64,000 nucleotides of DNA from Haliclystus octoradiatus (Eukaryota; Cnidaria; Staurozoa; Stauromedusae; Haliclystidae). Each line of letters starts with the position of its first letter. The first letter of the stretch is position 1. The notes under the pieces are model-generated. The model saw nothing but the letters and a program-made list of their open reading frames with translations. It made no database searches and had not been told where the DNA came from. The DNA is taken from contig OU744451.1 in the NCBI GenBank assembly GCA_916610825.1, positions 682,001 to 746,000 of the forward strand. The letters run 5' to 3'. Both the position numbers and the translations under genes were made by a program. This document shows, one piece after another, positions 3,213 through 44,700 of this stretch.

Positions 3213-3823
3213 TATGGTGAATGTATTTACATAGTGAGAGGGTCGAAGGAACGCTTCTCAATGTAGCACAAGCCATAGTAATAATAACTTAGAAAAATCG
3301 TTTTATTCGCTTTACATTGATTCTTTATAATCCAATATGTATCGAAGCTAGGGTAAGGCGATAACCACTTTTTCAAGATAATAAATGTTAGGATGGCTAA
3401 GATTTTTTGTGCTTTTCACCCTCTTCTCCTCAAAATTGTAAACAAAGTGGAAGTGAGAAGAAGTGAAGCACAAAATCACGTCAACACTGAAGGCTTCAAA
3501 TTCAACACTGACCAATCACTGCTGCTTATTATATATTTACCATGACAACAGCGACACAACAATGGTACAATAAAATGGGTACCAGTCCTATCTACTAACA
3601 ATACATAACTGTGTGTGCGACCGGTATCTGAGACATCGTTTATAGAAATCGCAAGCCACGTTTAAATTGAGATCAAAGGTGAAAACTTTGAAATAACACG
3701 TGCAATAACACGTACAAGTTAGTTGTAGTTTGGTTGTTGTTTATCTAAATTATATCGTTGAAATTGTCCCGCTGTTGCCGTTTATTTATCAAGTTAAGCC
3801 GATCTTCACAAGTGTGGCAGAGA

Positions 3824-4663
3824 ATGGCATCAAATAGAGTAATTCTTTGGAGCGCTCCTCGTTGTCTATCCACAGCCTTTGAGCAATGCATACGGCAAAT
3901 TAACGGCATGGAAGTTCTCCACGAGGCACATAAAAAGGTTTTCTCTGATGGACCAGAGTTTGAAAGTACGAAAAGAAATATCAATACAATAGACACCAAA
4001 AATGCTACATATTCATTCGTTGCAGAACAATACAAAATGGCATATAAGAAAAATAAAAATGTTTTTGCAAAAGAAATGGCATATTGTTTTAATAACAGGC
4101 AAAATGAAATCTTAAGAAATGTTTACAAAGATACAACGCATACATTTCTTATACGTGATCCTAAGAAATCAATTTTATCATTTTACAAAACTTGTATTAT
4201 TTCATATGAATTAAATGGCAGGAATAAAGAGGACATAGCCATAGAATTTGACCCGGTAGTAGCAGGTTTCATTGCATTGAAAATGATGTATGAATTCATT
4301 GTACACACTTATGGATACCAACCAATAATTATAGATGCAGATGATTTAATTGAAAATCCGAAAGAAATTATGAAGAAATATTGCGAATTAGTTGGCTTTC
4401 CATTCACTGAAAATATTTTAAAATGGGAAAGTGGTATGTTAGAAGACTGGGCATCTACCGGTCCGAGCGAATGGTATGAAGGTGTTAGCAGAAGCAAAGG
4501 TTTCACAAAGGACATCAAAGGCAAAAAAACACAATTGGAAGTTGAAATTGAATTGGAAATGTTGCCTGAGATTGTTAGAAAGACAATTGATACTAGTATT
4601 CCTGTTTATAAATATTTGCATGAACGTCGTGTAAAACTATCAGAACATGAAACAAGACAATAA
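3824..4663 (+). CDS. Sulfotransferase-like protein, copy 2
   Basis: A single-exon frame of 279 residues, paralogous to 661-1500, with the same P-loop motif (SAPRCLSTAFE) and RDPKKS motif. An upstream in-frame ATG at 3758 would add 22 residues (MKLSRCCRLF...). I prefer 3824 because it matches copy 1 and the conserved protein begins there. Differences from copy 1 are scattered substitutions with no frame break, so both copies look intact and possibly functional. The 5' leader differs completely from copy 1 after about 3668, so the two genes may have different promoters. The stop codon again overlaps AATAAA. Confidence 0.8.
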   Translation: MASNRVILWSAPRCLSTAFEQCIRQINGMEVLHEAHKKVFSDGPEFESTKRNINTIDTKNATYSFVAEQYKMAYKKNKNVFAKEMAYCFNNRQNEILRNVYKDTTHTFLIRDPKKSILSFYKTCIISYELNGRNKEDIAIEFDPVVAGFIALKMMYEFIVHTYGYQPIIIDADDLIENPKEIMKKYCELVGFPFTENILKWESGMLEDWASTGPSEWYEGVSRSKGFTKDIKGKKTQLEVEIELEMLPEIVRKTIDTSIPVYKYLHERRVKLSEHETRQ

Positions 4664-5164
4664 AGCTGTGACTCATCAAAATATTGTATTTCCAAACATG
4701 AAACAATTAACATTTTTATATTTATATGTCATGTGTAATCATTGTGAGATTCAAATCTCATTATTTTAATGATAATAATGAAAATGATGTTTCAGTTTAA
4801 AAACAATGAAAAGATATTCAATACTACGATCATGAGAATCTACGATCAGTTAATTTTTAATCATTTTTAAAGTATTTATATAGATAAAATAATCAGTCGT
4901 ATGGTATTACATATAAAGGTAATATATAGATACATATCTTTACATTAACAGTTGTTAACCTGATACTGTATGTCATATGTATTTATGCATATAGCAATAG
5001 GGTCATATTCATGTTTTAATTAATAACAATCTAGTTCTTAATTAATAACCTTTATTTAATCTAGTTCTTAATTAATATTAATGCTGTATGTAAGTATGAC
5101 ACTTTCTATAGCGTAAAGTGTCCTTTATTTGCCTGTCAAAATGAAAAAATATACCATATCATAT

Positions 5165-12609: not shown

Positions 12610-13726
12610 AACAGATCCACAACAAGCACAACTCCGCTACAATTGACAAATTATTCAATCGTATTTCTATTATCGCTAAACGATAATCTTATTGTGGTCC
12701 AAACCGATGAATTCAAATATAGTTGACATATAATGTTAGTACATGAAGCATTGTTGTCTAGTTTTGGGTCTTAATTGTTAATATTTGACTCAAAACTCGT
12801 TTACATGTAAATATACGTATACCAGAATTAATAATTGAAATATACGATAGTCATTTTAACATCGATTGTAGTCTTCTTTAATATTCAAATTGATGTACAG
12901 TATTTGGAATTTGTAGACATGATTACAATTCTGAGTAAAATAGATACTTGTATAAAAGTTTCATCTGATAGTAAATATTGTTTAGAAACAATTTAAGCAT
13001 GATCATGGAGCTTAGAGGATCGTAAAGTAGACCTAAGTCAAGAATCCCATTTTCCTAGTCGCCTAAATCACGTTTCACTGGCTGTTGAAATGCATTTAAA
13101 CAAATTCACGGAATATCATTTCCCATTTGGTCTCTTTGATTCAAAGCAGGTCATAGTGAGGTCATAGTGATGTTTCAGTGTCTTGTCTAATGTATGTGCC
13201 TCTTCAATGCAATGAACTCAACATTTAATTCGTGTAAAGCCATTCAGAAAATGGCAAGCTACACATAGAATGATCAATAGCTACTTCGTATGATAAAAAC
13301 AACATGAGTGGCTAGATAGAGATTATTGTGAGCGCAACGAGAATAACTTTTTGCCATCAATTTAAGCTAACATCACTATAAATACCAGAAAAAGTTTCAT
13401 GCATATTTCCTTCAAATATTCAAGTTCTTCAGTGCAATGAAACCATTCAAGTTCTCCAATGCCTTTCGGTATACACTATACAAGGGATACAAATTCACTT
13501 ACAACTTACGAGTCTTAAAAGATCTGTCTAATTTAATGTTGGCTGTTTCTATGGAAAAAGATCCTCGTTTACATTGTACCGAATTCATGCAAAGGAGATC
13601 ATAATATGTATGACGTCACAATTACATATCGAATCTATCTTTATTTTATTTTCTGCGTTTTCGTTTAACGACGGAAAAGCGGTGTAGATAAATATAAATT
13701 AATTATTAGACTATTAAACTTGGAAG
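12610..13726. other. Intergenic region
   Basis: Between the TIL-like gene and orphan gene copy A. I see no coding exon. From about 13447 the sequence is shared with 17688 onward and forms the left edge of the second tandem duplication. The shared block includes 'tgtatgacgtcacaattaca', which contains a CRE-like TGACGTCA at 13610-13617 and again at 17849-17856. Its use is untested. Confidence 0.5.
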
Positions 13727-16700
13727 ATGCCGGATTATTTTGGTTACGGAGTTGCGGATAATCCGTGGGGAGATTTTGACTCTCAATACAGAGCCATGCA
13801 GAATCTGAATGAGAGGATCCGAAACATTCAACAAGATATTAACACAAACAACAACAGAAGGAGACCAACAAATATTCAATATACAGAGATTCCAATTATT
13901 TCAACTGTGCTGACCTCCAGATTAAGAGAAAGACCTCACCTCTATGGCAATACAACATTTGATGTTAAATCAAAGTTACCAACTATTCAAGATATCATGT
14001 ACTGCAGCCCAAAATATAAATCAAATAACAAGAAATTCAGAAGTAGAATACAACCGTATGATGTTAAACAGAGATACGACAAGAGAAAGCAAGACGAATT
14101 TGACTTTCCCCAGTTAAGATTTTATCGTGGCTCAAATGTCAACAAAGAAGGAAAAATTGAAGAAATCTCCTTTCCCTATGGTAAGCATTGCCTGTGAGAC
14201 TCAGAATAACGGAGAAAACTCGTATTCTTTTAATATCTACATTAACAGTTGCTGTGCAGGATGTTGTCATGTTATATTTGATATGATTAATTTATTCTAC
14301 TTTTCAATCGGTTATAGACTCACAGGAAAGCCGTCCTATTGTCGGGTGCACTGATACAGAAGAAAGTAAAACTTACTGTGAAGATAATGCAGACATCAAT
14401 ATGGCTTACGATGGTTTTTCAATAGTATCAAATGATATGGAATACAATATCTCAGAAACATTACAATTTGATGAAGATGATGGAACGTATACAAGCGATC
14501 ATCAACATGTTACGGACTCAGACGAGGGTAAGATAAATTAAAATTGAATAAATGGGAGACAGAAATCGTCTGATGGTCATGAACTCAGAGCTGCATCATG
14601 TAGGTGTTCAGCTCTTGATCTGTAAATGCTCTGAATAATTTCATCGATCAGATAGGCACATAGGACACCATACCACCACAGACAAGCATCAAGAAACAAC
14701 CGATCGTTGAATAGTTAATCACTTAAATATGTATATATATAGCGCAATGAATTTGTCTTTATCGAGTTGTATATATATGCCTTTGAAGATTTTAAATAAA
14801 GGCTATTATCTATCTATAACAACTAACAAGAACCGTGAATGTAGAACACATTCATTATTATTGAAATATTTATATTATAGACGGAAGTCTTTATCTAAAT
14901 GATGCTATTTAAAACTAAGAGTTAAACATACATGGTCGCATATGTCAGGTGATCGTTTGTAGACAGGTAATCTGAGTTTCACAGTTTCGTCGATCGTGCT
15001 ACTGTGTCAAAGTGTATCTATATCTCGGGAAACAGAATGAAACATTTTAAAATAGTTTTAGTGTTATGGCTGCTGTTTACCTGATATGCAGTTACAGGGA
15101 AAATACAATTCAAATTCCTCCATTTTTAGATGAGCTAGTAGATGAAAGAGAGGTCAGCCTCGACAATAATAACAACAGCAGCGGAAACATTGTCATAGAA
15201 GATGTGACTGATTGTGACAGTTCATACAACGGTATATATTATTGCAAGCAATTATATTTCTAATTTATCATGGATGTATCTGTTAGAGCATTTTTAATCT
15301 GTATCCTTCCTTTTGCATGTTGTTTTTCTAAGATTTTTCAACTGAGAGTTTCAACAAGGACATTTGTGATTTTCAATATGATGTCATTTATCCCGATGAA
15401 GGTAAACAGAATTATTTGTACCTGATTTAAAACTTAATAATTATATCAATTCGTAGCATGGCACACTGAAATGGCAAGTCGATGTCATTAAATCGATTAA
15501 TGTACCGGCATCTAGTGAGACGTATTACTTGGTTCAAAATCAGCCCTAAATGACATTGCGATTGCATCAAAGTAGTAATTTTATCTTATGATTACTGGGT
15601 TTGCATTGAATAATGATGATAATATATCATTCCTTGTGATTCAATTAATTGCACGGCGATTTTCTAGTTGACAATAATTTATAAGCTCCATTTCATAATA
15701 TAGATAAATACAAAAATCAGACCTTCATAATTGCTATTAATTTAAAGTGCCATTTATCAACGGTAAATGTTCAAACTCTACTTAAACTTTAAGAATATTA
15801 AATCATGACCCCCATTTGAGCACTCGCACAATGTAGCTATTAAAAGTGTGTTAAAATGACTGGTCTATTTCCCGTGAGTCTTTACTGCCGTTATGTCAAT
15901 TGAGGCAGTGCATTACATAAGATGCGAGAAACAGTTGCTACTTTTATAATATATATCTCCCATATTAGAATTTCCATCATTTCTTTCTTAACTTTTTCAG
16001 ATGAGTTACAAAACGAACAACCTATAACAATCGACACTTATGAAATTGAGATAGAAGATATGAGTGATCCTTTACTTGATGTTGTTCAACCATTTGAAGG
16101 TAAATTAATCACATCAAAGCCAAACAGATCCAATGTTTTATTTATGACCTCAGACGGTACAATATTTCAACTTCATAGAATATAACCCTATACATTAGTC
16201 AGAGCCGGCCATCATAATTCATGAATTTACATATAGTAGTCCTTCATATTGCCCAGCCTCGTTCCATCCACGATAACAGTTGTTCTAAACAATACAAATG
16301 ACATTTTGAACATTTAATCCTATTATCAATTGTGTCACATTTCATCATTGGCCTAAAGCAACTATGACATTCTCAATTGCATATTTAGAGGAAGGAAGAT
16401 TAAAATGCATGAATATATTCTACGGTTAATTAGTGTAAATGGTCTTATTAACGCCATTTCATACTTTATAATATGAGTAATGTATTTATTTTATGAAATT
16501 TAATTTTCCATTTCGATGTACGCTTGAAGAGGTCATATATAGTACTATAGGCAAACGACGAAACGTCGCACAATTTGTTCTTCCTAACTGCAACAATAAA
16601 ATACTATAATCACATTATCTAATTTTTAGAATCTGTTTTGCCAGACGTTGATGAACAATGCATTTCAATCGCTACTTCATCATCCAAGAGCGAATCTGTA

Positions 16701-16820
16701 AACAAAACGTCATCTACAATTAAATCTATCTTCTGGTCAGCCGAAGCAGTTTTTAGATTTGTTATTACCACCTTCCCACCAGATGTGGTTTTATCATTTG
16801 TTCCTGAAACATGGTGCTAA
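13727..16820 (+). CDS. Unrecognised acidic multi-exon protein, copy A
   Basis: Six exons: 13727-14180, 14318-14527, 15130-15231, 15333-15401, 16001-16099 and 16630-16820, giving 374 residues. All five introns are phase 1, and every junction codon is Asp or Glu (G|AC, G|AT or G|AA). I do not recognise the family. Exon 1 encodes 151 residues, basic and rich in Arg, Asn and Gln (start MPDYFGYGVADNPWGDFDSQ). Exons 2-5 are short, acidic, Asp/Glu/Ser-rich modules. The last exon is Ser/Thr-rich and ends in a hydrophobic stretch with FPPDVVLSFVPETWC. There is no signal peptide and no clear membrane helix. AATAAA follows the stop at about 16848. A paralogue lies at 19014. The conservation of all exon frames between copies, despite intron divergence, supports a real gene. 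The likely location is cytosolic or nuclear; the function is unknown. Confidence 0.75.
14881..14912 (+). CDS. Possible alternative terminal exon of orphan gene copy A
   Basis: Within intron 2 an acceptor 'tatattatag' is followed by a phase-1-compatible run that restores an Asp codon and reads DGSLYLNDAI before a stop. The same sequence, acceptor and stop are found in copy B at 20135-20166. If used, it would give a protein of about 231 residues lacking exons 3-6. This is inference from splice logic only. Confidence 0.25.
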
Positions 16821-17120
16821 CTAAGAGAATGATGTTCTCAAAATTGTAAATAAAAAATTTGTATAAATAATTTTAAATTGTAGAATAAACTAACATTTTT
16901 GCTTAGAATTGAATAAATTTAATAACATTGTAAAGGTTTAATTATTTTACAATGAGTACTTGTAATTATCGATCGAAATTTCTTGTGCGGATGTATACCA
17001 TTTTAAGAATCTGCAGTTTTATGAGAAGTTTGCAGTACAGTCCCCAGAATATTCATTTTATAGATAGTTATTGACTATTGACCGCATTTTCACAATAGAG
17101 GATATATATATGATGTCTGC

Positions 17121-17420
17121 AGTCCCGGTCGGGGAGTAACTCCCCTACTTTCCCTATACGGGGATGTGCCACTTGTTGGGATTCATGTTCCAGCTGAGAA
17201 ATATACTTTTTTGGTAGGAAATTTCAGAGTATTAAACATTTTTGGTAAAATTTGGATTCTATAGAGAGTTTTGGAAAAGAGCTGAATTTGAAGGCTGAAA
17301 ACTGAATTTGATTGTTACCCATAAGAATAGAACATTCCCGCAAAGAGCCTATGTTCACACCCCTCAGGGGTTTATGGTAGAAGACATGACTGTAATGGTC
17401 TGAAAATACAGTGTAAGGAT
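17121..17420 (+). repeat. Dispersed repeat with 'tacggggatgtgcca' motif
   Basis: Contains 'ccctatacggggatgtgcca', also present in inverse sense at about 21820-21840 ('tggcacatccccgta') and in related form at 21560 ('gggatgtgccattttg'). The rest of the segment has the same low-complexity character as 21520-21840. No coding capacity is visible. Confidence 0.5.
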
Positions 17421-17870
17421 GATAGATATAGTAATACACCATATAATAATTGCGTTATGAGGGATATTCATTAGAGCACAAAGCAAGGAACGATGATTTT
17501 AGTTAGATAGATGTATATTTCAATCACTCATGTGAACAATAATTAAAATTTGTTCGTTTTTTAAATACAACTATATTGATTAATTGACATTTATAAATGA
17601 TTGGTGTCACACCTTAAGCAATGCCTGTTTATCAGGGGACACTGATAATAAAGTAAATAATCATATATGCTAGGATAATGAAATCTTCAAGTGCTCCAAT
17701 GCCTTTCGCTATACACTATACAAGGGATACAAATTCACTTACAACTTACGAGTCTTAAAAGATATGTCTAACTTAATGTTGGCTGTTTCTATGGAAAAAG
17801 ATCCTCGTTTACATTGTATCGAATTCATGCAAAGGAGATCATAATATGTATGACGTCACAATTACATATC

Positions 17871-18912
17871 ATCATCATCATCATCATCATCATCATTTAT
17901 TCAGAACCTGATAAGCTACAGGAGCTTTTTTTCACAGGACTGATTGAAACAAATATAATATATATGTGTACATGTGTACACGATAAGTATAAAAGGTAAG
18001 GTTTATAGTTGGTATATAGATAATATTTACAATAAAGTCTATGGCTAAAAAAAGAAAATTTGTCACGATTTGCTATGCAATTGCTTCTTGAGAAGATGCT
18101 TAAAACTGGTTCCACTAGCAACAATCTTCATCTCAGACGGAAGGTCATTCCACTTATGAGCACCAGCATACTTGAATGAGTGTCTATGGCTTGACTCAAT
18201 GTAGATGTCATTGTGGGAATGTGCACGTGTTCTAATGGAGTGTGGTTTTTGAAACAAATTGGAGAGCAAGGGAGGAGCTAAATTGAATTTTAGTTTATGT
18301 GTGAATATTAGCTGTTGTGTAGTTAGTCTGTCTCTGACTGGTAGCCAACCAAGTTGGTTGAGCATGTCTGAGACATGAGTTCGATAATTACAGCGGAGAA
18401 TGACCCTCATTCCTCTGTTTTGTAGTCTCTGGAGGCGATCGATGTGTTGTTTTTTACAATTCCCCCATACGACAGCGCAGTAGTCGAAATGTGGCAAGAC
18501 TATGGTGTTGAAGATCATCTCTGCTGTATATTGTGGGATAAACTTCCGTGCAAATTTTAGTACTGCTAGGCCTCTATTTATTTTCTTTATCATTGCTTCG
18601 ATATGCTGATCGAAGGATAGTGTTGGATCAATGCGGACTCCTAAATAATTAATTAGTGGTGCATTATGTATGATTCCGTTTTCGTTGTTAATTTCTAATT
18701 GTAAAGGTTCGTATCTATTTATTTTCTGTTTTGTTCCGATTAGCATACAGTTGGTTTTATGTACATTTAAAGTTAGTTTATTAGCGTTTAGCCATGAATA
18801 AATACTATTTACATCAGAGGAAAGTGAATTTTTAATGATCTCGGGGTCTTTATCGGCTATGTACAATAAGGTATCATCAGCATATAGGTTTATTTTACAT
18901 TTATTTACAACT
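17871..18912 (-). mobile_element. 5'-truncated LINE with reverse-transcriptase C-terminal half
   Basis: On the minus strand a continuous frame of about 270-285 residues runs from just before the catalytic YADD (at about 18868-18890) through YLGVRIDPTLSFDQHI, HFDYCAVVWGNC, LQRLQNRGMRVIL and HKWNDLPSEM. These are typical of the C-terminal part of CR1/L2/jockey-type reverse transcriptases. The 3' end on the minus strand is a GAT/TGA microsatellite tail (ATC repeats on the plus strand at 17871-17896). The uninterrupted target is preserved in unit A ('ttacatatcgaatctatc'), and 'atatc' occurs on both sides here, a short target duplication. The open frame suggests recent insertion. The fingers region and endonuclease are missing. 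Confidence 0.85.
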
Positions 18913-19013
18913 ATATCGAATCTATCTTTATTTTATTTTCTGCGTTTTCGTTTAACGACGGAAAAGCCGTGTAGATAAATATAAATTAGTTATTAGACTA
19001 TTAAACTTGGAAG

Positions 19014-22000
19014 ATGCCGGATTATTTTGGTTACGGAGTTGCGGATAATCCGTGGGGAGATTTTGACTCTCAATACAGAGCCATGCAGAATATGAATGAG
19101 AGGATCCGAAACATTCAACAAGATATTAACACAAACAACAACAGAAGGAGATTAACAAATATTCAATATACAGAGATTCCAATTATTTCAACTGTGCTGA
19201 CCAGCAGATTGAGAGAAAGACCCCATCTCTATGGCAACACAATATTTGATGTTAAATCAAAGTTACCAACTATTCAAGATATCATGTACTGCAGCCCAAA
19301 ATATAAATCAAATAACAAGAAATTCAGAAGTAGAATACAACCGTATGATGTTAAACAGAGATACGACAAGAGAAAGCAGGACGAACATGACTTTCCCCAG
19401 TTAAGATTTTATCGTGGCTCAAATGTCAACGAAAAAAGAAAAGTTGAAGAAATCTCCTTTCCATACGGTAAGCATTGCCTGTGTGAAACTCAGAATAACG
19501 GAGAAAACTTGTATTCTTTTAATTTCTACATTGACAGTTGCTGTGCAGGATGTTGTCATGTTATATTTGATATGATTATTTTATTCTACTTTTCAATCGG
19601 TTATAGACTCACAGGAAAGCCGTCCTATTGTCGGGTGCACTGATACAGAAGAAAGTAAAACTTACTGTGAAGATGATGCAGACATCAATATGGCTTACGA
19701 TGGTTGCTCAATAGTATCAAATGATATGGAATACAATATCTCAGAAACATTACAATTTGATGAAGATGATGGAACGTATACAAGCGATCATCAACATTTT
19801 ACGGACTCAGGCGAGGGTAAGATAAATTAAAATTGAACAATTGGAGACAGAAATCGTCTGATGGTCATGAACTCAGAGCTGCATCATGTAGGTGTTCAGC
19901 TCTTGATCTGTAAATGCTCTGAATAATTTCATCGATCAGATAGGCACATAAACAACCGATCGTTGAATAGTTAATCACTTAAATATGTCTATATATAGCG
20001 CAATGAATTTGTCTTTATCGAGTTGTTTATATGCCTTTGAAGATTTGAAATAAAGGCGATAATCTATCTATAACAACTAACAAGAACCGTGAATGTAGAA
20101 CACATTTATTATTATTGAAATATTTATATTATAGACGGAAGTCTTTATCTAAATGATGCTATTTAAAACTAAGAGTTAAACATACATGGTCGCATATGTC
20201 AGGTGATCGTTTGTAGACAGGTAATCTGAGTTTCACAGTTTCGTCGATCGTGCTACTGTGTCAAAGTGTATCTATATCTCGGGAAACGGAATGAAACATT
20301 TTAAAATAGTTTTAGTGTTATGGCTGCTGTTTTCCTGATGTGCAGTTACAGGGAAAATACAATTCAAATTCCTCTATTTTTAGATGAGCTAGTTGATGAA
20401 AGAGAGGTCAGCCTCGACAATAATAACAACAGCAGCGGAAACATTGTCATAGAAGATGTGACTGATTGTGACAGTTCATACAACGGTATATATTATTGCA
20501 AGCAATTATATTTCTAATTTATCATGGATGTATCTGTTAGAGCATTTTTAATCTGTATCCTTCCTTTTGCATGTTGTTTTTCTAAGATTTTTCAATTGAG
20601 AGTTTCAACAAGGACATTTGTGATTGTCACTATGATGTCATTTATCCCGATGAAGGTAAACAGAATCATTTGTACCTGATTTAAATCTTAATAATTATAT
20701 CAATTCATACCATGGTCCACTGAAATGGCAAGTTGATGTCATTAAATCGATTAATGTACCGGCATCTAGAGAGACATATTACTTGGTTCAAAATCAGCCC
20801 TAAATGACCTTACTATTACATCAAAGTAGTAATTTTATCTTATGATGACTGGGTTTGCATTGAATAATGATGATAATATATGATTCATTGTGATTCAATT
20901 AATTGCACGGCGGTTTTCTAGTTGACAATAATTTATAACCTCCATTTCATAATATAGATAAACACAAAAATCAGACGTTCATATTTGCAATTAATTTAAA
21001 GTGCCATTCATCAAACGTAATCTTCAAACTTTACCCAAACTTTAAGAGTAGATAACCTTATGACATGAATTTGAGTACTCGCACAATGTAGCTATTAAAC
21101 GTTGTGTTATGGGGACTGGTCTATTTCCCGTGAGTCTTTACTGCCGTTATGACAATTGACGGACGAAGTGCATTACATAAGAAGTGATAAACGGGTGCTG
21201 CTTTTATAATATATGTCTCCCATATTAGAATTTCCATCATTTCTTTCTTAACTTTATCAGATGAGTTACAAAACGAACAACCTATAACAGTCGACACTTA
21301 TGAAATTGAGATAGAAGATATGAGTGATCCTTTACTTGATGTTATTCAACCATTTGAAGGTAAATTAATCACAGAAAACTAGTATGCTGGCCTTACACGG
21401 TTACACTATATTTCAACTTCATAAAATTAAGCTTATAGTAAATACTTACTTTGTTGTTGTCATACAAACAGCTGAAATTGATAATTTAAAGAGTTTAGTA
21501 AATTGTTTCAAAAAGATTTGAATCAATGGCCAACATAATCCCTGGGGGTACTTTTGTACTGGGATGTGCCATTTTGAAGATCTGCTAGTACACCTAAGTT
21601 GAAGGTTTTGCACAAAACCATACCCCAAAATTGCAAACAAAGTATTATATTTTGGCATAAAACATGTCATTTTGTCGCCTCACAGCAGGGGTCCAGGCAC
21701 CTCACAGCGGGAATGAATCCGATTTTCACAGCTTGAAACCCGAAAATTCACCCCACAATTCCAAAATTGAGAACTTGAAACACCAAAATTGCCAGCATGG
21801 TGCCAAAATGACGACCCAAAAATAATGGCACATCCCCGTAGAATTCATAAATTTACTTTTAACAGCCGATGATATTCTCAGGCCTAGTTCCAGCCACGAT
21901 ATCAGTTGTTCTAAACAATACAAATGGCATTTTAAACCTTTAATCCTATTATCAATTGTGTGACATTTCATCATTGGCCTAAAGCATCTATGACATTCTA

Positions 22001-22456
22001 AATTGCATATTTAGAGGAAGGAAGATTAAAATGCATAAATATATTCTACGGTTAATTAGTGTAAATGGTCTTATTAACGCCATTTCATTCTTTATAATAT
22101 GAGTAATGTATTTATTTTATGAAATTTAATTTTCCATTTCGATGTTCGCTTGAAGAGGTCATATATAGTCACTAGTACTATAGGCAAACGACGAAACGTC
22201 GCACAATTTGTTCTTACTAACTGCAACAATAAAATACTATAATCACTAATTTCTTTAATTTTTAGAATCTGTTTTGCCAGACGTTGATGAACAATGCATT
22301 TCAATCGCTACTTCATCATCCAAGAGCGAATCTGTAAACAAAACGTCATCTACAATTAAATCTATCTTCTGGTCAGCCGAAGCAGTTTTTAGATTTGTTA
22401 TTACCACCTTCCCACCAGATGTGGTTTTATCATTTGTGCCTGAAACATGGTGCTAA
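19014..22456 (+). CDS. Unrecognised acidic multi-exon protein, copy B
   Basis: Six exons with lengths identical to copy A: 19014-19467, 19607-19816, 20384-20485, 20587-20655, 21261-21359 and 22266-22456, giving 374 residues. All introns are phase 1. The protein differs from copy A at scattered sites (for example Leu26Met in exon 1, and Phe-Gln to Cys-His in exon 4), while the last exon is identical at protein level. There are no premature stops, so it appears functional. The intron after exon 1 has no in-frame stop in this copy, because a TGA present in copy A reads TGT here. Reading through would add a cysteine-rich segment and end at 19643. I take this as an intron because the donor 'gtaagc' and acceptor 'ttatag' are conserved and the spliced frame continues. 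The function is unknown. Confidence 0.75.
21430..21840. repeat. Insert unique to intron 5 of copy B
   Basis: Copy A lacks this stretch; flanking intron sequence rejoins at 'cacgata(a/t)cagttgttc'. It contains 'gggggtacttttgtactggg', 'gggatgtgcca' and, near its end, the inverse 'tggcacatccccgta'. The same motif occurs at 17121-17420, so it is probably a member of a dispersed non-coding family. Confidence 0.5.
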
Positions 22457-23760: not shown

Positions 23761-26700
23761 TTATGGGAATGCAGATCTTGTAATAGCATTAAATATTGTA
23801 GTCGTAGAATTTTGAATGGCAGTGGTAATCGTTGAAGGGCTAATTGTTGTTTTTACATCGAGAATGGAATCATCAAACGTATCATCAAAAAGCATGCCTA
23901 ATTTAAAAATAAATGAAAGTAAATTGAGATATTTGTCTAATTGAAAACAATATAATTCAAATGAAGATAAAATAAATAAAAGTTAATTGAGAAAATTTGC
24001 TTAAATTTTTTACGTTACCAATAGTTCATAAATCTTTCCAACCCTTCAAAATTAACAGTTCATCATCGGTAGTTCATGACAATCAACTGAAAATTCTGTC
24101 TAGTCTATGTCATATTTCTTCGTAGTAAGTTAAAAGTAGCATTGTTATTGTTATTAGCATCGTGGGATTGGCCTGCTTTATGTATAGTGTGTTCTCATAT
24201 TTCTGCCAATCGGTGATCATAATTTCGCTCCAGTCAGATTGCTCGTATAATAGTTTGGCTCAATTTTGCACCAGTCGGGTGAGGTATCTGTATGCAAACA
24301 ACTTGGCTAGTAACCAATCAGAGTCCTATATCTAGCATTCCTAGGAATCTTTGCACCGGTTGTGCTCACTTTTTCTAAATTAATTTTTGTTTACGCTTAC
24401 TTAACGTTTAGTTTCGATTTTGTTACTTTCTTGACATCCATCTACATTATTTGTTTAGGACAAAGCCAAATTGATAATTTCTCGGATTATATTGACGTCT
24501 ATATTATTCAAGCTAGCCTGAATTTGTATCCTGAAAATTGCATTGAAGGTCTTTTAAGGATTCTATTTTCAAAACTGATTTGTGAAAAAATCCTTCCACT
24601 TTCTTGAACCTGTCAATATTTAGGCTGCATCCAACCCTGCATTAAACGATCCAATTTTCATGAACAGTTCAACTCAGTGAATTATTCCGCAGGAATTGGC
24701 TTCAACAGACAAACAAAAACATGACCACAACATTTAAAAAGGACTTACCAGCAACACAAGCTGTCATAAAACAAGCAACCGTACCAGCAAACAATGCACG
24801 GAATGCTAACTTAGCAATATGCGGTCTACGTTCTGGTGCTAAATGGCCAATGCCACCAATTTGAATACCGATTGACGCAAAATTAGCAAATCCACAAAGA
24901 GCATACGTCGTAATGACCTCAGAACGGAGCTAAAAATAGATAGATATAAATAGATAGATATATAGGTATTAATAATGAGAAGGTCAAGAAAGACATATTC
25001 TTTGGTTGTAACTAGATACAGTGAAACCTGTATATAACGGCCAGCTATGAGAGGTAGATAAATTGACCACTATAGACAGGTTTAATTCAATAGAAAATAC
25101 TATTTTGGGCATTGCAAGAGTGACCATTATAGACAGGTGGTCGCTGTATAGAGGTGGCCGTTATAACAGGTTTCATTGTATATAGATATAATATAATGAA
25201 AGGAGTCAAAGACTACACCTTCATAAATGTTTCTAATAGTTTCATGCCTACACAAGCATCAGACGAATATACTAAATAATCAAAAATAAATTTATGGTTC
25301 ATCCTATTTTGATTTACAAATTCGCAGTTATTGTTTAACAGGACAAAGGTTCTTGATACTACACATAAGTTGTATTGTTATTATTTCCTATTATCGCTAG
25401 TAATAGTTATCATGTGCATATGTAAATAATAATAAATATGTTAACAGATTTATAATTAGATAGATACAATTTATTTTCATGTCTGCATTTGGAAATAAGT
25501 TCAGACTTTTTATCCACAAATTTTATTTTAATTGGCCTTAGTCAGTGTCAAATTGGTAGATTGATTAAGCTATCTAAACAAAAAAACAAACAAACAAACA
25601 AATAAACAAACAAATAAACAAACAAATAAACAAATAAACAAACAAACAAACAAATAAACAAACAAACAAACAAACAAACAAACAAACAAACAAACAAACA
25701 AATAAACAAACAAATAAACAAACAAACAAACAAACAAACAAATAAACAAACAAATAAACAAACAAATAAACAAACAAATAAACAAACAAACAAACAAACA
25801 AACAAACAAACAAACAAACAAATAAACAAACAAATAAACAAACAAATAAACAAACAAATAAACAAATAAACAAACAAACAAACAAATAAACAAACAAATA
25901 AACAAACAAATAAACAAACAAATAAACAAACAAACAAACAAACCAAAAAAATAAACAAACAAATAAACAAACAAACAAACAAACAAACAAACAAATAAAC
26001 AAACAAATAAACAAACAAATAAACAAACAAATAAACAAACAAACAAACAAACAAACAAATAAACAAACATACAAACAAATAAACAAACAAACAAACAAAT
26101 AAAAAACAAACAAACAAATAAACAAACAAACAAATAAACAAACAAACAAATGAACAAATAAACAAAAAAATAAAAATAAAAAAAAAATAAAATAAACAAA
26201 CAAATAAACAAACAAGCAAACAAACAAACAAACAAACAAACAAATAAACAAATAAACAAACAAATAAACAAACAAACAAACAAACAAACAAACAAATAAA
26301 CAAACAAATAAACAAATAAACAAACAAACAAACAAATAAACAAACAAACAAATAAACAAACAAATAAACAAATAAACAAACAAATAAACAAACAAACAAA
26401 CAAACAAACAAATAAACAAACAAATAAACAAACAAATAAACAAACAAATAAACAAACAAATAAACAAACAAATAAACAAACAAACAAACAAATAAACAAA
26501 CAAGTAAACAAACAAACAAATAAATAAACAAACAAATAAACAAATAAACAAACAAATAAACAAATAAACAAACAAATAAACAAACAAACAAACAAACAAA
26601 TAAACAAACAAATAAACAAACAAACAAACAAACAAACAAACAAACAAATAAACAAATAAACAAACAAATAAACAAATAAACAAACAAATAAACAAACAAA

Positions 26701-29700
26701 CAAAAAACAAACAAACATACAAACAAATAAACAAACAAACAAACAAACAAACAAATAAACAAACAAATAAACAAATAAACAAACAAATAAACAAACAAAC
26801 AAACAAACAAATAAACAAACAAATAAACAAATTAACAAACAAATAAACAAATAAACAAACAAATAAAAAAAAAAAAAAAAAAATGAACTAAACAATAAAC
26901 AAACAAACAAACAAAGAAGAGCTTCATACGTTTAATAAAGTAATGTAGAAAGCGTCGCCCTAGCGAAGCAGCTACTCACAATGCAATTCCCTTTGGGCCA
27001 TTCCATCCACCATCCTCAGATGGTACTCATTTGATGTTTCAGATAAAGTCAAGGCTGAGTTGACCTTAGGGGGGATTTGAACCACGGTCGATCAGATATG
27101 ATCCGATCTGAAGTTCGGTTGCTCTGCCATCTGAGCTAATCCTCCTTCACGATTAATGAATGTACATTCTAAATGTCATCGTAAAGAAAAGTAAAAGTTT
27201 GGAAGAAAACTCTATGTATTGATAATGTTGTAATTCAAATAGAACATTTTATATATTATTTATATATATTTTATATATATTAGATATATTATTTATCTAT
27301 CTATCTTAGCAATTGTAAATCTCGTGTTAATATGTAGTAATTATGTAAAATGATCTAACTTACTGACATGGTTGGACCACCTGGATTGTGTCCCGTTCGT
27401 GTGGCAATGTAACGAGATAAACGATCATAAGCAACAAACTCATTCAAAAAAGTTTTTACACCAAGCAGTTCGCCAACTTTAAAAGCATCGTTCCATTCAA
27501 CACCCATCAAATAAGCGAATGGCATACACACGTAAGAGCAAATCAACTGAAAAATAAAAAGGAGTTTCATGAAAAGTGGAAAACGAATAAATGATAAAAA
27601 TCATTTCTAATCTAATCAGTACATAAAAATATACTTTTGGAACTTACCTCAAATGTTAGATTTGGTATGCCAATCATACCACCACACCACATCAAGATGC
27701 CGTTTGAAAACGACAACAATGCAACAAATGCAATAAGATTGACGGCAATGTTTGCAACAAGGCCAATTGACATGCTTGCACCAACGGCAAATGCTTCTAT
27801 GAATGAACTTTCTTTTCTAAGAATTAAAACATTTATAAGACAATCCTATATGCTTTTGTTAATCTCATTGGAATTTGATCTTTTGAGTTAGACACACCCC
27901 TGCAAAAAACGTTCACAGGTTTACGAACAGTTCATGAACTAGTTAATATACTGTTCATGGACTATTCAGAAAAAGTTCATGAAAAATTGAGCAATTTCAC
28001 GTTCATGAATTTGTGAAATTTATCACAAAGACAATGTGAGGCCTGCTCTTTAATAAACTGATGTTGGCAAGGTGGAAAACAACAGTTCGTAATTGTATTA
28101 GAATGAAGATTTCAAATTCAGGATTCACATTGAGATTATCGATTTAGGGTTTGACCGAATATTAGCATCTTCAAATTTTGATAACTTTGAACTTTGAAAA
28201 CTGTTCAAATATTTTAAATTCCATTTTTATGTAGTATGTCTTGTCTTGCTCATCCTGAGAAAGGTGCGACATTCACTGCACACAATGCATTCATTCCGTA
28301 CGCATTGATACCAGTAAACATCACCCGCATTTGTTTTTACTACAATCCAGCCTATCATATTGATTACCTCTATATACCGGCCACCTGTCTATAGTGGTCA
28401 CTCCAGCGATGTCTTTACTAGATTAGCCTACCAGTTACACCCGCTGTGTTTGATTATCATAATGTATGTCATGCATCCTCAATGGGATATTTTTTAAATA
28501 ATTGAAAGTCATAGATCACGCCAGACTTTTCTACTATTAATGTATTTCTTTTTTAACAGGAAACATTTTCAATGATTTTTGATTTATTACAAATTTGATG
28601 TCATCTCCAATTTTTGCATTTTAATTATGACAACAACAAAATACACATTCTTTTCGATCACAAAACAAAGGGATTGTGGATGCAAGATAATATAAATCCA
28701 GTCAAGTGTGATTCTGTTGATTGATTTGACTGAGACAGAATTGTTGTCAAAATGGAAACAGTTTTTGTTAGTTTTGCTCAAGATAGAATCAGTTTTGAAG
28801 AAACGCAGCCACCCATGTACCCCTCTGGTTAATGACGAGTCGATTGATATGCGTTAAGAATCGACTGCATCAAAAGTGACATTGTGAATCACTGCAATAC
28901 ATACATACATATACATATACATACCACAGACATACAAATGGAAATAGTGTCAATTTAAAAGTATATCTTATAGCTGGATGTTAGATAGAGGTTTCACAGC
29001 ATCATAAAAAGAAATTATGTAAAGAAGATTACCCTTTTGGAATGTCAATATCTTTTACACGTTTAGTTTTCGGTTCTTCAGTTTCAGGGTACATGAGTTT
29101 TGATAAAGCTAACGAAGCGGGTCCTGACATCACAGATGCTGAAATAAGATGCGTTGCTGAAATCCCTTTACTTATATAGGCGCCCAAGACAGAGCCACCA
29201 ATCGTAGCAAAGCCACCAGTCATAATAGCATGTAGCTCTGACATTGTGGCTTCATTAAGAAACGGACGGATCAACAATGGGGCCTCAGTCTGTGAAGTAA
29301 TTAACAAAATTGATGAGCATTAAAATTGACCAATAATCAATCTATGTTGTTGTTCACTACAGTATTGGTTTAGATAGCTTAAGCTGTTGGTGAACAGTTT
29401 CTATGCTGTGTATGCGACGGCATGTGAGGAGAAAGCAAAAAGGCATCACAAGCCACTATGGCAATTGAGTGCTTTTCTTGAAGTGCTTTGAGTACGCCAC
29501 AAAGCTATTTGTAAAATAGCCAGCATAATTTTATAAACTCTTATATGACTTTCTTATGAACTCTGTAAATTGATGGTTTTGGAAATTCCTGATAAAATTG
29601 GAAATGTTCAATCGTGACAGCAAGTAAGAATTGATATAGTGATGTAGCATTGTACCTCTAAGCCAATCAGATTAATGGAATGAATTTGGTAATGATACAA

Positions 29701-34430: not shown

Positions 34431-36322
34431 TGTAAAAAAGTAAAAGGCGTGAAAGTAGAAAACACAGACAAAAATATTGTTCTATGATGCGGAAAATCAT
34501 CCTTTCACCGACAAACCTCAAAATCATGAATTAGTGAAAGTGCATATCAAATAACCAAATCAAATTTCATTTTCAAATGAGGATTAAATCCTATCATCTA
34601 TTTAATTATGCTCAATTCCTGTATTTCAATGTTTACATAAAATTTCAGATTTTGAGGTAAAAATTGAGATTTTCCCGCCAAAATTTGACTTCAGAAAAAA
34701 TTACTAGACAGAATAATTTTTTTTATTTAGGACGACCTAGTTGGAAGTTGGCGCTATTCGTAGATGATGTAGTAAGTTGTATAAATCAAGGTGACAATTT
34801 TATAAATTGAATTGTTTAACTGTAATAAATAACGAAATTTAAGAAACGAGAAATATTAATTCTATAGGCGTACCACAACATTTTGGACATTTTGGCGGGA
34901 GAATACACACGTGTACATTGTCTGCGTTTGTTTTTGAAGAATGAATTAAATATTAAACTGCATGACAAATGATTAAATTCACGGCATTCATTGATCAATA
35001 TATTCAACATACTGCATATGAGATTATGCAAAGAGCTTAATTGTTTAACATATTTTTAAGGTGAACTGGACAACCAAGAAAGTTAAATACTGCACTGTGT
35101 GAGAAAAATCACCATGGCTTTGAACAGTTTTATCAAAATCAATCACCGCTCACTGACTACCGTATCTGGTATTTGATGATAAAATGTCAAGTTATTGTTG
35201 CTCGATGAACTTGATGGATGGTTTAAAACATAGATACTGATTACAATAATCCAATGTTTAAAAAATTGGCGACTTCTGGTTTTGGCTCATCTCCATCGAG
35301 TTAGAAGTAAAACTGTGCACAAATTCAAAATAGAAAAACTAAATTATTCCTGAGCCATTGGCTATTGTATTTTACGATCCTTCAAAGCCACCATTCAATA
35401 CAACCTCTGTGCTAAATTAAGGTTGAGAATTGAGATTACGAGTTATTTAGAAGCTTCTGGTTGATTCGAAAAGTGAACAAGAGAATCTGATTAGAATCAC
35501 ATGTTATGCCTTATGCCGCACGTGACGAAGACAAGTTTGAGTAAAAACAACAATGTCGAAAGTCACGTGAGAACAGCAAACAAAAGAGAGATTTGCCGCG
35601 CATTGCAATTACCTTTATCAAAACTTACATTAATTTACACAAACCATTAATTGATAATATTTTCATTCATTTATTGCTAAATTGTACAGTTTAAAATTGT
35701 AATTAACTGTTGATAACGACGTGCCATAAAAATTTATTCTCGACAATACCGACTATCACGTGTCACACATCATCACGATGTCATACTGTTCTTGTTTGCT
35801 TTTATTTGTTGTTGGGTGGAGATGAAAATCACATGATCAAGTCAAGTGACCAGCAGCTCTCTCAACATAAAAGAACACACAAATCTCAAATGCTCATATT
35901 CGATAAAGGACTCAGAACATCCAAGACTGAAGACTGATTAATTGTAAGTATCTACCACATACATTTTATTGCTGCTGTTCGACTTACATTTCAGATTATA
36001 ATTTGACACAAGGCTCAAGTCTGTATTGGTCATCGTTGTCGTTGCTGGTTCATCGAGTCACTTGCGATTTGTAGGACACAACGGATTACAGTTAACTATC
36101 CTATATTTTACGATCTGTAGCAGTTGCAGGGGCTGTGTCGTCTTTTATGTCACATAATTTAATCCTAAGAAATGCATAAAGCGTTCGTTGTTATACATAT
36201 GAAATCAAACATAGCCTGGGCTCTTGTAGAACATTTGTAGAGTAACTCGCTCTTCTCACGCTGGGATAATTTTTCTAACCATTTTCTTTCTTTTAAATTT
36301 GTGTTTAGATTGTGACTTCACT
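34431..36322. other. Head-to-head intergenic region between SLC28 and cathepsin L
   Basis: About 1.9 kb between the two divergent starts. It should hold both promoters. I could not identify a coding exon or a firm core promoter. The splice acceptor at 36302-36309 ('ttgtgtttag') shows that the cathepsin transcript has an upstream exon or a trans-spliced leader. Confidence 0.5.
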
Positions 36323-39346
<3,024 letters not shown>

Positions 39347-40127
39347 GCTCAAAGAACTATTTAATTATTAGATTATTTGAAAATTATAAAGCTTTGCAGT
39401 GATTGTTCAACATTGATCGGGTGTAGGCATTTGTGAATTATATTTTAATTGATAGATTTTATATTTTGTAAATATTCAAACAATATGTTTTCATGCTGTT
39501 GAATACATGTTTTGTTGTTGATAATACGGCAAAAAAAAACAGTTTGTGTTAACTTTGTTCCTATCATTGGTTCTATCACTGTTAAAATCTATTTTGTTAA
39601 ACATTTTCAGTAATGTATATTCTAAGTTGAAACCTGCATTACTAAATTGCATAATTAAATTGCCAAAACATTTCAAGCTATTTGTCATCTATCAAATCAA
39701 AATAAGACGGTCTCAACACTCTCACCTATATGAGATGCTCAAATCCTTGCCTCAGTCTATAAACTGTGTAATCTCTTGTAATAAATCATGCTGTTGAATT
39801 TGTTATGATGCTCAATAACGATGTTATTACACTGTCGTCCTTCTGCCTGTGCAATGCATTTACTACCGTATCCCACATTCCCACAAAAAATAGATGAAAG
39901 TTGAAATTTCATTTCTGGTCTATGTTGTAATAGCCTCGAATGGAAGCACAATCAAGCGAGACAATTATAAAAGTTCATCAAATTTCTGAGATTTGAACTG
40001 AGTATTCCTTTCACTTATTACAGCTGATACTTATTCGTGAAATAGTCACAAAATTTATCAAATACTGTACTCCTTAGATTCGCATTACAGTGAGAAAAAG
40101 GCAGCTGAAGCTGTTTAACATACTGTC
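39347..40127. other. Intergenic region
   Basis: The cathepsin 3' UTR followed by the MRPS23 upstream region. Short frames on both strands look spurious. Acceptor-like 'attacag' and 'ccttag' sites occur before the MRPS23 start. Confidence 0.5.
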
Positions 40128-40658
40128 ATGGTTGGCACTCGTCATTTACAAGGGACTGTTGTGCAACGAATGCAAGCTCTATTACGAACTGGTGTGTACA
40201 AAAAGCCACCAATTTGGTTAGGTGTTGTAGAAGCTTTTCCACCAATGACAAACGAAGATGCTGCTGAGTTGACTATCCAACGAAAGGAAATACCAAAGAT
40301 CAAATTCAAATTAGACGATCTGAATCAAAGAATATATCGTGAATTTAAAGTTTTGAAACATGAGCCATTAATTTTTATGCCAGAAAACCACGCACAAAAA
40401 CAAAATCCTTGGCAATTATTTTTTAATAAATACGAAGATATGTTAACATTAAACAATGATGATGAAGACATGGCATTTGAACAAACTGTTAATTGGTTTA
40501 ATAAAAATATAACACTTAGAAAACAATCAAAGAAATCTTATAAGGCAGGCTCAGCTGATGTTGAAAAGATTAATGATGAAATGGTTAGCAATGTAATTCC
40601 AACTGATATTTTAGACTTTTTTAAATCTGAAATTACAAATGAAAGCTCAACAAAATAA
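40128..40658 (+). CDS. MRPS23: Mitochondrial ribosomal protein mS23
   Basis: A single exon of 176 residues. The N-terminal part, GTVVQRMQALLRTGVYKKPP followed by IWLGVVEAFPP, matches the conserved opening of MRPS23, with basic and amphipathic residues able to guide mitochondrial import. The product is a small-subunit component of the mitochondrial ribosome. Vertebrate MRPS23 is near 190 residues, so the length fits. The C-terminal half is charged and less conserved. The gene lies in the gap between cathepsin L and the 3' end of TAK1, which runs towards it. It has no intron in the coding region; a 5' UTR intron is possible because acceptor-like sites lie upstream. Confidence 0.85.
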   Translation: MVGTRHLQGTVVQRMQALLRTGVYKKPPIWLGVVEAFPPMTNEDAAELTIQRKEIPKIKFKLDDLNQRIYREFKVLKHEPLIFMPENHAQKQNPWQLFFNKYEDMLTLNNDDEDMAFEQTVNWFNKNITLRKQSKKSYKAGSADVEKINDEMVSNVIPTDILDFFKSEITNESSTK

Positions 40659-41741: not shown

Positions 41742-44700
41742 TCAAAATCTTTGCAAATTCCTTTTCTGTTTAACTTTATCAAGTTGAGCTTTGACACTTG
41801 CGTGAAGTACTAATACCTCTTCCTAGAATACAAAATTAAGTACGTGACATTTGAATAATTGGATGAACTTTAATAATATATCGGAATGATTGTAGTGCAC
41901 AAGACTAGAGGTATGCGTCGGATCGAATTAGGAATTAGTAATCAGAATGTTCACAAACATTTTCAAATCGAATCCGATCAGATTTGAGTGAAAAATTGAT
42001 CCAGAAAAGTCCAAAACATTTCTGCATTAATAATCCGATCTGACAGAATCCGGATCTGAGTAATCTGTAATCTTCAATTCAATTTATGGTCATATGGTCA
42101 TAATGATATCAAGAACAATGAAATAGTTATAGAATTTTCATTAAAAATAGCCCAAATAATTAACACAGCATATCGAGGATATTAGCAGCAGATCAGTACA
42201 TGTTTCTGGCCATTAGGCTACATTAGTAACGATACAGCTCAGTGAACAAGGGAATGACTTTGGTATATACATTAGATCGGTATACCCCCGGCGAAAAAAG
42301 TTCATGAACTTAGTGAAAAGTTCATGAACTGTTCATGAACTATATGTGAAAAGTTTGTCAATCTGGTTCATGAACTCAAGTTTTGGTTGACAGTTCATGA
42401 ACCTTTCCCAAAGTTCATGAACTAGCTCATGAACTGTCTGTAACTGTCATGAACTTTACTTGAAAAACAAATATTCCATGAACTCGGATATTACAAAGTA
42501 GTCATAAAGTTTATTAAATTCTTTAATAAATTTTGGACTTATCATGAAAAGTTGTTCATTTACTGGTTCATGAACTGTCTGTAACTGTCATGAACTTTAT
42601 TTGAAAAACAAATATTCCATGAACTCGGATATTACAAAGTAGTCATAAAGTTTATTAAATTCTTTAATAAATTTTTGGACTTATCATGAAAAGTTGTTCA
42701 TTTACTAGCTCATGAACTGTCTGTAATTGTCATGAACTTTATTTGAATAACAAATATTCCATGAACTCAGATATTACAAAGTAGTCATAAAGTTTATTAA
42801 ATTCTTTAATAAATTTTGGACTTATCATGAAAAGTTGTTCATTTACTGGTTCATGAACTGTCTGTAACTGTCATGAACTTTATTTGAAAAACAAATATTC
42901 CATGAACTCGGATATTACAAAGTAGTCATAAAGTTTATTAAATTCTTTAATACATTTTTGGACTTATCATGAAAAGTTGTTCATTTACTAGCTCATGAAC
43001 TGTCTGTAATTGTCATGAACTTTATTTGAATAACAAATATTCCATGAACTCGGATATCACAAAGTAGTCATAAAGTTAATTAAATTCTTTAATAAATTTT
43101 GGACTTATCATGAAAAGTTGTTCATTTACTGATTCATGAACTTTTCCACTTCATGAACCTTTGTCAAGTTCATGAACTCTTATTGCACTCACGTTTTTTT
43201 TTCACAGATATATACATGACATAGATGGGTATATTCTGTATATATATTAAGGATATTAAAAATCCAAAAAAAATCTGATCGGATCTCAATCGCAGACCTC
43301 TAATATACAAATATTGTATGACCATAGAGGATCAGTGAGATCAAGATATTATAATAGAACCAAGATAGTCTAACTCAGATTTATATTTTAAAGAGTTTAA
43401 AAAGGCCATAATATTATCTTACCTTAGTGAAAATCAACCAAATAAAATGTATTTAACATCCTCAAGTATTAAATAATTCAAATTTAAAAACGACAATCAC
43501 ATCCTCAAAAATCTATCTTTGTTGACCCAATATCAATCAATTCCAAACATTTTGATCGGTTTTGCCACGACAGAATCACTAAGAATTGGTCTCAAATGCA
43601 ATATTAAGATCATCTCGTTTTGATGCGAAAAAATGCTTTACTTTTCACAAGAAACAGAAACTAAGTTTGTTTGTTTGATAATCTGACCCCCGTAAATTTT
43701 ACGCATCAAAACGAGATGATCTTAAAATAGCTTTTGAGGCCAATTCTCAGTGATTCTGTCGTGGCAAAACAGCTATAAACTAGCCGCTGTAAAATTGGGG
43801 GAGGGGTGCAATTCTAATTATGTCTAACAAAATGGGTTTGGCATTACTGGCATATGCAAAATTGGAAGCTTCTGAGTAATATAGTAACTTCAAAACCCCA
43901 CAATTTTGCGTCTTGACAATATTACCCAAACTTGTTTTCAAATCTTAATTAGGATGGGGAGTTGCCCAAGACGTATAGCTGTGCACAGGAACAAACAATG
44001 AGGAGTTTAGATCAGGATCTGTTTGGCCATTTAAGTAAATATAATGTTGACCCAAACGTAACATCTTCAAATTCTTACATGCTCTTCCTGTGCCTTTAAG
44101 AAGTTTTCCAAATGTTGAGAACTTCGTCTCTGCTCTCTTTCTTCATCTTGGAGTTGTTTTTCAACATCCAATCTATAAAAATAAGATAACAATTCAATAA
44201 TCCAATTATTTCTTGACAGCTATGCTATTTTAATTGTTTCACAGAGTTTCACTGAATTTATAGATTCTGAAATCTGGCTACAACTCGACCAGTATAGCAG
44301 AACCAATTCTTCCCACAAAATGATACAATAATTCATTCTATTCTATAGTAAATGAATTTGGTCTGTGGCGCAGGCAAGCTACAATTACGAGACAATAGTA
44401 AAATAGAGTAGTGAATACAGTAGGCACAACAAATATACAAGAGTTACATCATGCAGGATGTGTAATGGTGTAGTGAACAGAAGTAAACGTGACAACAAAA
44501 TTTTCTCCACGAGGGGGCTGGCTAACTCCGTCCCCAGACGAGATGGTTTTTAGAACGCAATCCAATAACACATGCAATTCAAACATCAAAAATCAATATT
44601 TTCATCTCCAACAAGGAGGATTTAGCCCTCTATCCCCGCTAGTGATACGTCTGATTAGCAACAGCCTTTTTAATACAAACAATTTATGGACAAAATTCTT

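Follow-up and report, generated by a model that had tools for sequence, protein, structure and literature searches.

What kind of gene is present twice in tandem within a stretch of 64,000 nt (C7:682001-746000, hereafter the window), and does its exon arrangement say anything about the protein that it encodes? The original prediction described two six-exon genes of no recognised family, with all introns in phase 1 and every exon after the first beginning with an acidic residue. We rebuilt both gene models from the sequence. The first copy, A1, lies on the forward strand and consists of exon 1 (13727..14180, 454 nt; codons 1-151, the basic head), four acidic exons (exon 2, 14318..14527, 210 nt; exon 3, 15130..15231, 102 nt; exon 4, 15333..15401, 69 nt; exon 5, 16001..16099, 99 nt) and exon 6 (16630..16820, 191 nt including the stop codon), which encodes a Ser/Thr-rich stretch and a conserved C-terminal tail. 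The second copy, A2, is on the same strand, with exons at 19014..19467, 19607..19816, 20384..20485, 20587..20655, 21261..21359 and 22266..22456 (including the stop codon). The rebuilt models bore out the predicted structure: six exons of equal length in the two copies, an open frame of 374 amino acids in each, phase 1 for all introns (and, in addition, GT-AG ends for all ten), and the same junction codons in A1 and A2 (GAC, GAT, GAT, GAT and GAA). The predicted distribution of charge was also found, with net charges of +9 for exon 1, -44 for exons 2-5 and -4 for exon 6, in which 18 of 63 residues are Ser or Thr.

A1 and A2 are a recent duplication, so agreement between them counts once. Of the 1125 coding bases, 31 are different in the two copies (97.2% exon identity), and 1794 of 1904 alignable intron positions are identical (94.2%; exon versus intron, Fisher p 1e-4). 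The claim that the exons are conserved while the introns have gained insertions stood as regards conservation, but the insertions are not one-sided: A2 has the longer intron 5 (by 376 nt), A1 has the longer intron 2, and intron 3 is identical in the two. The dN/dS ratio that had been proposed as a check on the pair (NG86) was 0.023/0.050 = 0.46 and not decisive (Fisher p 0.06).

The two copies are real but do not form a lone pair, as they are part of a larger family. In the animal's own genome (261.9 Mb, 33 contigs), exon 1 had at least 18 matches, exon 6 at least 16, and exon 1 of the C2 copy, used as a query with E up to 10, at least 20; two extra matches from a relaxed search (E 0.07 and 2.1) both contained stops and were left out of the count. 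Ten full gene models were obtained by mapping all six exons, and the genome-wide tally is at least nine intact genes, a single copy with a frameshift and seven fragments, spread over contigs C2, C4, C7, C8, C10 and C11. The intact genes are A1 and A2 in the window, B2-B4 of the array B1-B4 on the reverse strand of the same contig (C7:1.981-1.997 Mb), D1-D3 (C10:1.729-1.750 Mb) and E1, a lone copy (C2:13.860 Mb); in B1, exon 6 is one base short and the tail is out of frame. One fragment lies at each end of the B array, C4 has two, C8 and C11 have one each, and another, at C7:14.778 Mb, retains exons 3-6. All nine intact genes keep the six exons, the GT-AG sites and phase 1. The introns of the A and B copies gave no blastn alignment with those of the D and E copies, whereas alignments were obtained for exons 1 and 6 and for about 165 nt of 5' flank. 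The family would have grown by tandem duplication, giving two arrays on C7 and one on C10, with the C2 copy and decaying fragments elsewhere; a piece downstream of E1 matches a piece found just upstream of each D gene in C10, as expected if E1 derived from a tandem array.

The diverged pair A2 and E1 proved decisive as to selection, with an overall dN/dS of 0.181/0.618 = 0.29 (p 8e-15). The ratio in exon 1 was 0.15 (44 synonymous differences in 85.5 sites, 44 nonsynonymous in 367.5; p 2e-14), and residues 337-374 differed at 14 synonymous changes in 26.8 sites and 2 nonsynonymous in 87.2 (p 6e-9). Exon 2 (0.63) and exons 3-5 (0.53) were each not significant alone, and exons 2-5 pooled gave p 0.045. 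The ratio for exon 2 was above 1 in three pairs of close copies (D1-E1 2.5, D3-E1 2.7, B2-B4 3.0), the first of which gave p 0.69 when tested. Nonsynonymous rates differed between the ends and the middle (p 1e-4), and among the nine intact copies 99 of 151 residues of exon 1 and 35 of 38 of the tail are invariant, against 20 of 70 in exon 2. These substitution patterns indicate strong purifying selection on exon 1 and on the C-terminal 38 residues, and faster evolution of the acidic middle. The hallmarks of a functional gene family were all found, namely open frames, splice sites that are conserved and, when diverged copies are compared, purifying selection, and we judge from the sequences that this is almost certainly a real protein-coding multigene family of a medusozoan, maintained by selection.

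The prediction that the protein belongs to no recognised family held, as there was no match above cut-off in Pfam, NCBIfam or PDB. Pfam was searched with the full A2 protein and its two ends, and PDB with the full protein by sequence and with profiles of the two ends; in NCBIfam the best match of exon 1 had E 0.079, far under the cut-off, and exon 6 had none. A Pfam match of exon 1 of the C2 copy to Elf4 (E 0.02) fell under the Elf4 cut-off and was dropped. Alignments of exon 1 and exon 6 gave pattern matches in 35 and 73 stretches of viral contigs, and that of exon 1 gave 62 in GTDB genomes, with no tblastn relative in either collection. Aurelia CL390 was also considered as a candidate. The family thus appears to be an orphan with respect to Pfam, NCBIfam, PDB, viral contigs and GTDB, its own genome being the eukaryotic genome covered. 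It resembles taxon-restricted (orphan) multigene families in its tandem arrays, its pseudogenes, its lack of relatives in the databases searched and an acidic middle that looks disordered from sequence, but differs from them in being only a candidate for restriction to a single lineage. We refer to it as an unnamed medusozoan gene family and make no claim that it is unpublished, the literature having been compared by words and not by sequence.

What might such a protein do? Secretion by a signal peptide is unlikely because there is no hydrophobic N-terminus, and the protein probably acts inside the cell. We consider it an evenly balanced proposition that the genes make up an orphan, medusozoan family of intracellular adaptor-like proteins. 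A two-ended adaptor with an acidic spacer would fit the layout, and we put this more specific model forward tentatively. One binding surface would be made up of the basic head and a short heptad-patterned helix (M24, M27, I31, I34 and I38, positions read by eye from the alignment, the last of which is lost in B3). The acidic middle, disordered and spacer-like with short aliphatic spots, could serve as a flexible spacer that may fold back onto this head, and a second partner or a membrane could be bound by the near-invariant helix-PP-helix tail. The structure model of exon 1 has a helix at residues 17-51 (pLDDT about 81 over 21-40) but is weak as a whole (mean pLDDT 51.7, pTM 0.22), and that of the tail, also weak (mean pLDDT 63.7, pTM 0.33), has two helices, the second of them short, interrupted by Pro-Pro; a fold search was dropped because both models were weak.

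Alternatively, the protein could be a transcription regulator that contacts DNA, directly or through a DNA-bound partner, by its basic head and has an activation domain in its acidic middle, which is dotted with aliphatic residues (IVIEDV, YDVIYPDE and IxIED). The basic head is consistent with this, as is the strongly acidic middle with its short conserved spots in the otherwise variable exons 3-5. However, no DNA-binding family was matched, and the most conserved part of the protein is the C-terminal tail rather than the middle. A bipartite nuclear-signal pattern is present in 9 of 9 intact copies but also appears 1084 times when exon 1 is shuffled 5000 times, so that its presence is near chance and says little about location in the cell; we rejected it as evidence of localisation. 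On balance a regulator of this kind seems unlikely.

The exon arrangement, which the original prediction had singled out as special, turned out to be mostly ordinary. The general share of phase 1 among introns is 25-35%; at that share, the probability that five of five introns are phase 1 is about 0.001-0.005 per gene, and as one genome contains thousands of multi-exon genes, a number of all-phase-1 genes is expected. The copies amount to five independent intron observations, rather than ten or fifty, because they inherit the same five introns. The last base of an exon is usually G, and 56 of the 83 G-initial codons of exons 2-6 encode Asp or Glu, which gives a probability of about 0.14 for five acidic junctions out of five; the acidic junction residues would follow from the usual exon-final G together with the acidic composition. 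The rule that each exon starts with an acidic residue applied at all junctions of A1 and A2 but had to be given up for the family, since D1-D3 and E1 start exon 2 with Gly. In these same copies the third junction codon encodes Glu, exon 3 is 105 nt and exon 4 is 45 nt rather than 69, its acceptor being shifted by 24 nt, with frame and phase kept. Phase-1 borders are also the mark of symmetric modular proteins assembled by extracellular domain shuffling; the present exons, unlike those, contain no recognised domains, carry no extracellular signal and give a weak hint of duplication between exons 3 and 5.

Could the symmetric exons instead be a device for making variant secreted proteins by exon skipping, as in the micro-exon genes (MEGs) of schistosomes? 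The two systems share symmetric internal exons, possible in-frame skipping and the absence of a known domain, and the phase-1 borders throughout would allow each of exons 2-5 to be skipped in frame. The resemblance of exons 3 and 5 also points this way: shuffled pairs scored as well in 11 (A1), 17 (A2), 0 to 3 (B2-B4), 23 to 114 (D1-D3) and 222 (E1) of 10000, figures that do not allow for the 15 possible exon pairs. When all exon pairs were tried in A2, B2, D2 and E1, other pairs also fell below 60 per 1000 in A2 and E1, and in E1 exons 1 and 3 (7/1000) did better against shuffles than exons 3 and 5 (25/1000); the sequences offer a weak hint that exons 3 and 5 might share an origin by duplication. 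According to PMC4350168, MEG products are secreted or membrane-anchored and the genes are apparently restricted to platyhelminths, and their coding sequence lies mostly in very small symmetric exons. In the present family, by contrast, the internal exons are larger (45-210 nt), exon 1 of A2 alone accounts for 454 of 1125 coding nt, and the N-terminus is unlike a signal peptide (best mean hydropathy of A2 -0.67 in 19-residue windows starting at 1-25). No exon was gained or lost in any of the ten gene models, and the ends are under strong purifying selection. A MEG-like system is thus very unlikely.

The scattering of copies or fragments over C2, C4, C7, C8, C10 and C11 could also be explained if the gene were the cargo of a mobile element or descended from one. 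Retroelements adjoin copies, and D1 lies between two inverted copies of a dispersed repeat (47 nt at 91% and 242 nt at 84%). The copies have nonetheless kept their introns, stand in tandem arrays and share their flanks; around A1, B2 and E1 there are only arms of 16-29 nt, mostly intragenic (for B2 and E1, among the five longest), and no terminal repeats common to the copies were found among the five longest pairs in each of four stretches (A1, B2, D1 and E1). Neither the full family protein nor its ends matched a transposase or polymerase in Pfam, and no viral or prokaryotic relative was found, which leaves a mobile origin with a very slight probability. That the family is a decaying set of duplicates without function is scarcely tenable despite its seven fragments and one frameshifted copy, because the nine intact frames and strong selection on both ends refute it for the family as a whole, although single copies may still be dying.

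The history of exon 1 proved to be mixed. In exons 2-6 the D copies are about 24% from the A copies and 6-7% from E1, and in codons 1-60 this order is reversed (D-A 4-5%, D-E1 19-20%). Distances in codons 61-125 were 1.5% for D2-A2, 5.1% for A1-A2 and 1.0% for A1-B2. Because the exon 1 distances reverse those of exons 2-6, short tracts of exon 1 were most likely copied between C7 and C10 by gene conversion, with probable tracts, confined to exon 1, in D2 and at 19014-19390 of the window in A2. Over codons 1-60, E1 stands at about 20% from each of the other copies; the signal of purifying selection in comparisons with E1 therefore does not depend on conversion from A or B.

The 5' flank is shared as well. 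That of A1 (13560..13726, forward strand) can be aligned to the C10 and C2 copies even though the introns cannot, and it contains TGACGTCA, which we take to be an ATF/CREB-type site, at 13611, 116 nt upstream of the ATG. This box lies 115-116 nt upstream of the ATG in 10 of 11 copies (the ten models, and a fragment of exon 1 that terminates the B array). The exception is A2, where the box is at 17851, 1163 nt from the ATG, within the displaced upstream part of its 5' flank (17683..17870, forward strand, start set by eye). The displacement of about 1 kb is due to the insertion, between the box and A2, of a 5'-truncated non-LTR retrotransposon on the reverse strand (17871..18912, limits set by eye), which has an RVT_1 fragment, an ATC-repeat end and a 5-nt direct repeat, ATATC. 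A2 may therefore be regulated differently from the other copies. The window has five TGACGTCA boxes against 0.66 expected, a number reached in 0 of 100 shuffles; two belong to A1 and A2. The other three, at 51191, 51499 and 59101, are not the family's.

Taken further, the genes might be jellyfish-specific regulators, with a head (exon 1) that conversion between chromosomes keeps alike in several arrays, a tail fixed by selection and a symmetric acidic cassette that evolves freely and gives rise to differences between copies, including splice isoforms; we regard this as quite improbable. Orphan families of this kind, in which the ends are sharply selected and the acidic middle is loose, are candidates for a part in lineage-specific traits. 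For functional tests, this family provides nine natural variants, a common promoter box and a conserved tail that is well mapped. Should isoforms exist, symmetric-exon variation would also have a clean example outside flatworms.

Several other features were observed around the copies. Upstream of A1 in the window is a tandem pair of sulfotransferase open reading frames (648-1612 and 3811-4775) with no visible introns, which match Sulfotransfer_5 (E 1e-13 and 2e-12) and are about 97% identical over 965 nt. Other Pfam matches in the window were a nucleoside transporter piece (29029-29319), cathepsin pieces (36230-36586 and 38161-38469), mitochondrial ribosomal protein S23 (40119-40658) and, under the cut-off, a kinase piece (57059-57355); Rfam gave no match at gathering score within the window. 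A long tandem repeat at 25416-27000, with spacings of 8 and 12, produces spurious long open reading frames of F, V, C, L, Y and I, and an inverted repeat at 43550-43779 has 83-nt arms, 88% complementary and 64 nt apart. On C10, an LTR retrotransposon lies between D1 and D2 (L014 460-5298; C10:1732460-1737298), with 205-nt repeats that are 99% alike, TG...CA ends, CTCT on both sides and matches to DUF7041, RT, RNase H and integrase; the D2-D3 unit has a second pair of the same 205-nt repeats. The dispersed repeat flanking D1 has its inverted copies at L013 5563-5803 and L014 41-275 (C10), and a relative at 17129-17339 of the window.

The animal's mitochondrial contig, C33, also bears on its identity. 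In the first 16 of its 18.3 kb, TGA encodes Trp, ARAGORN made five tRNA calls, of which only trnM and trnW were trusted, and cox1 runs against the remaining respiratory genes (identified by eye from translations). An open reading frame at one end is presumably polB, judged from a motif. PMC3519871 gives such a layout as the ancestral medusozoan order, present in discomedusan Scyphozoa, Staurozoa and trachyline Hydrozoa. The layout of C33 points to a medusozoan.
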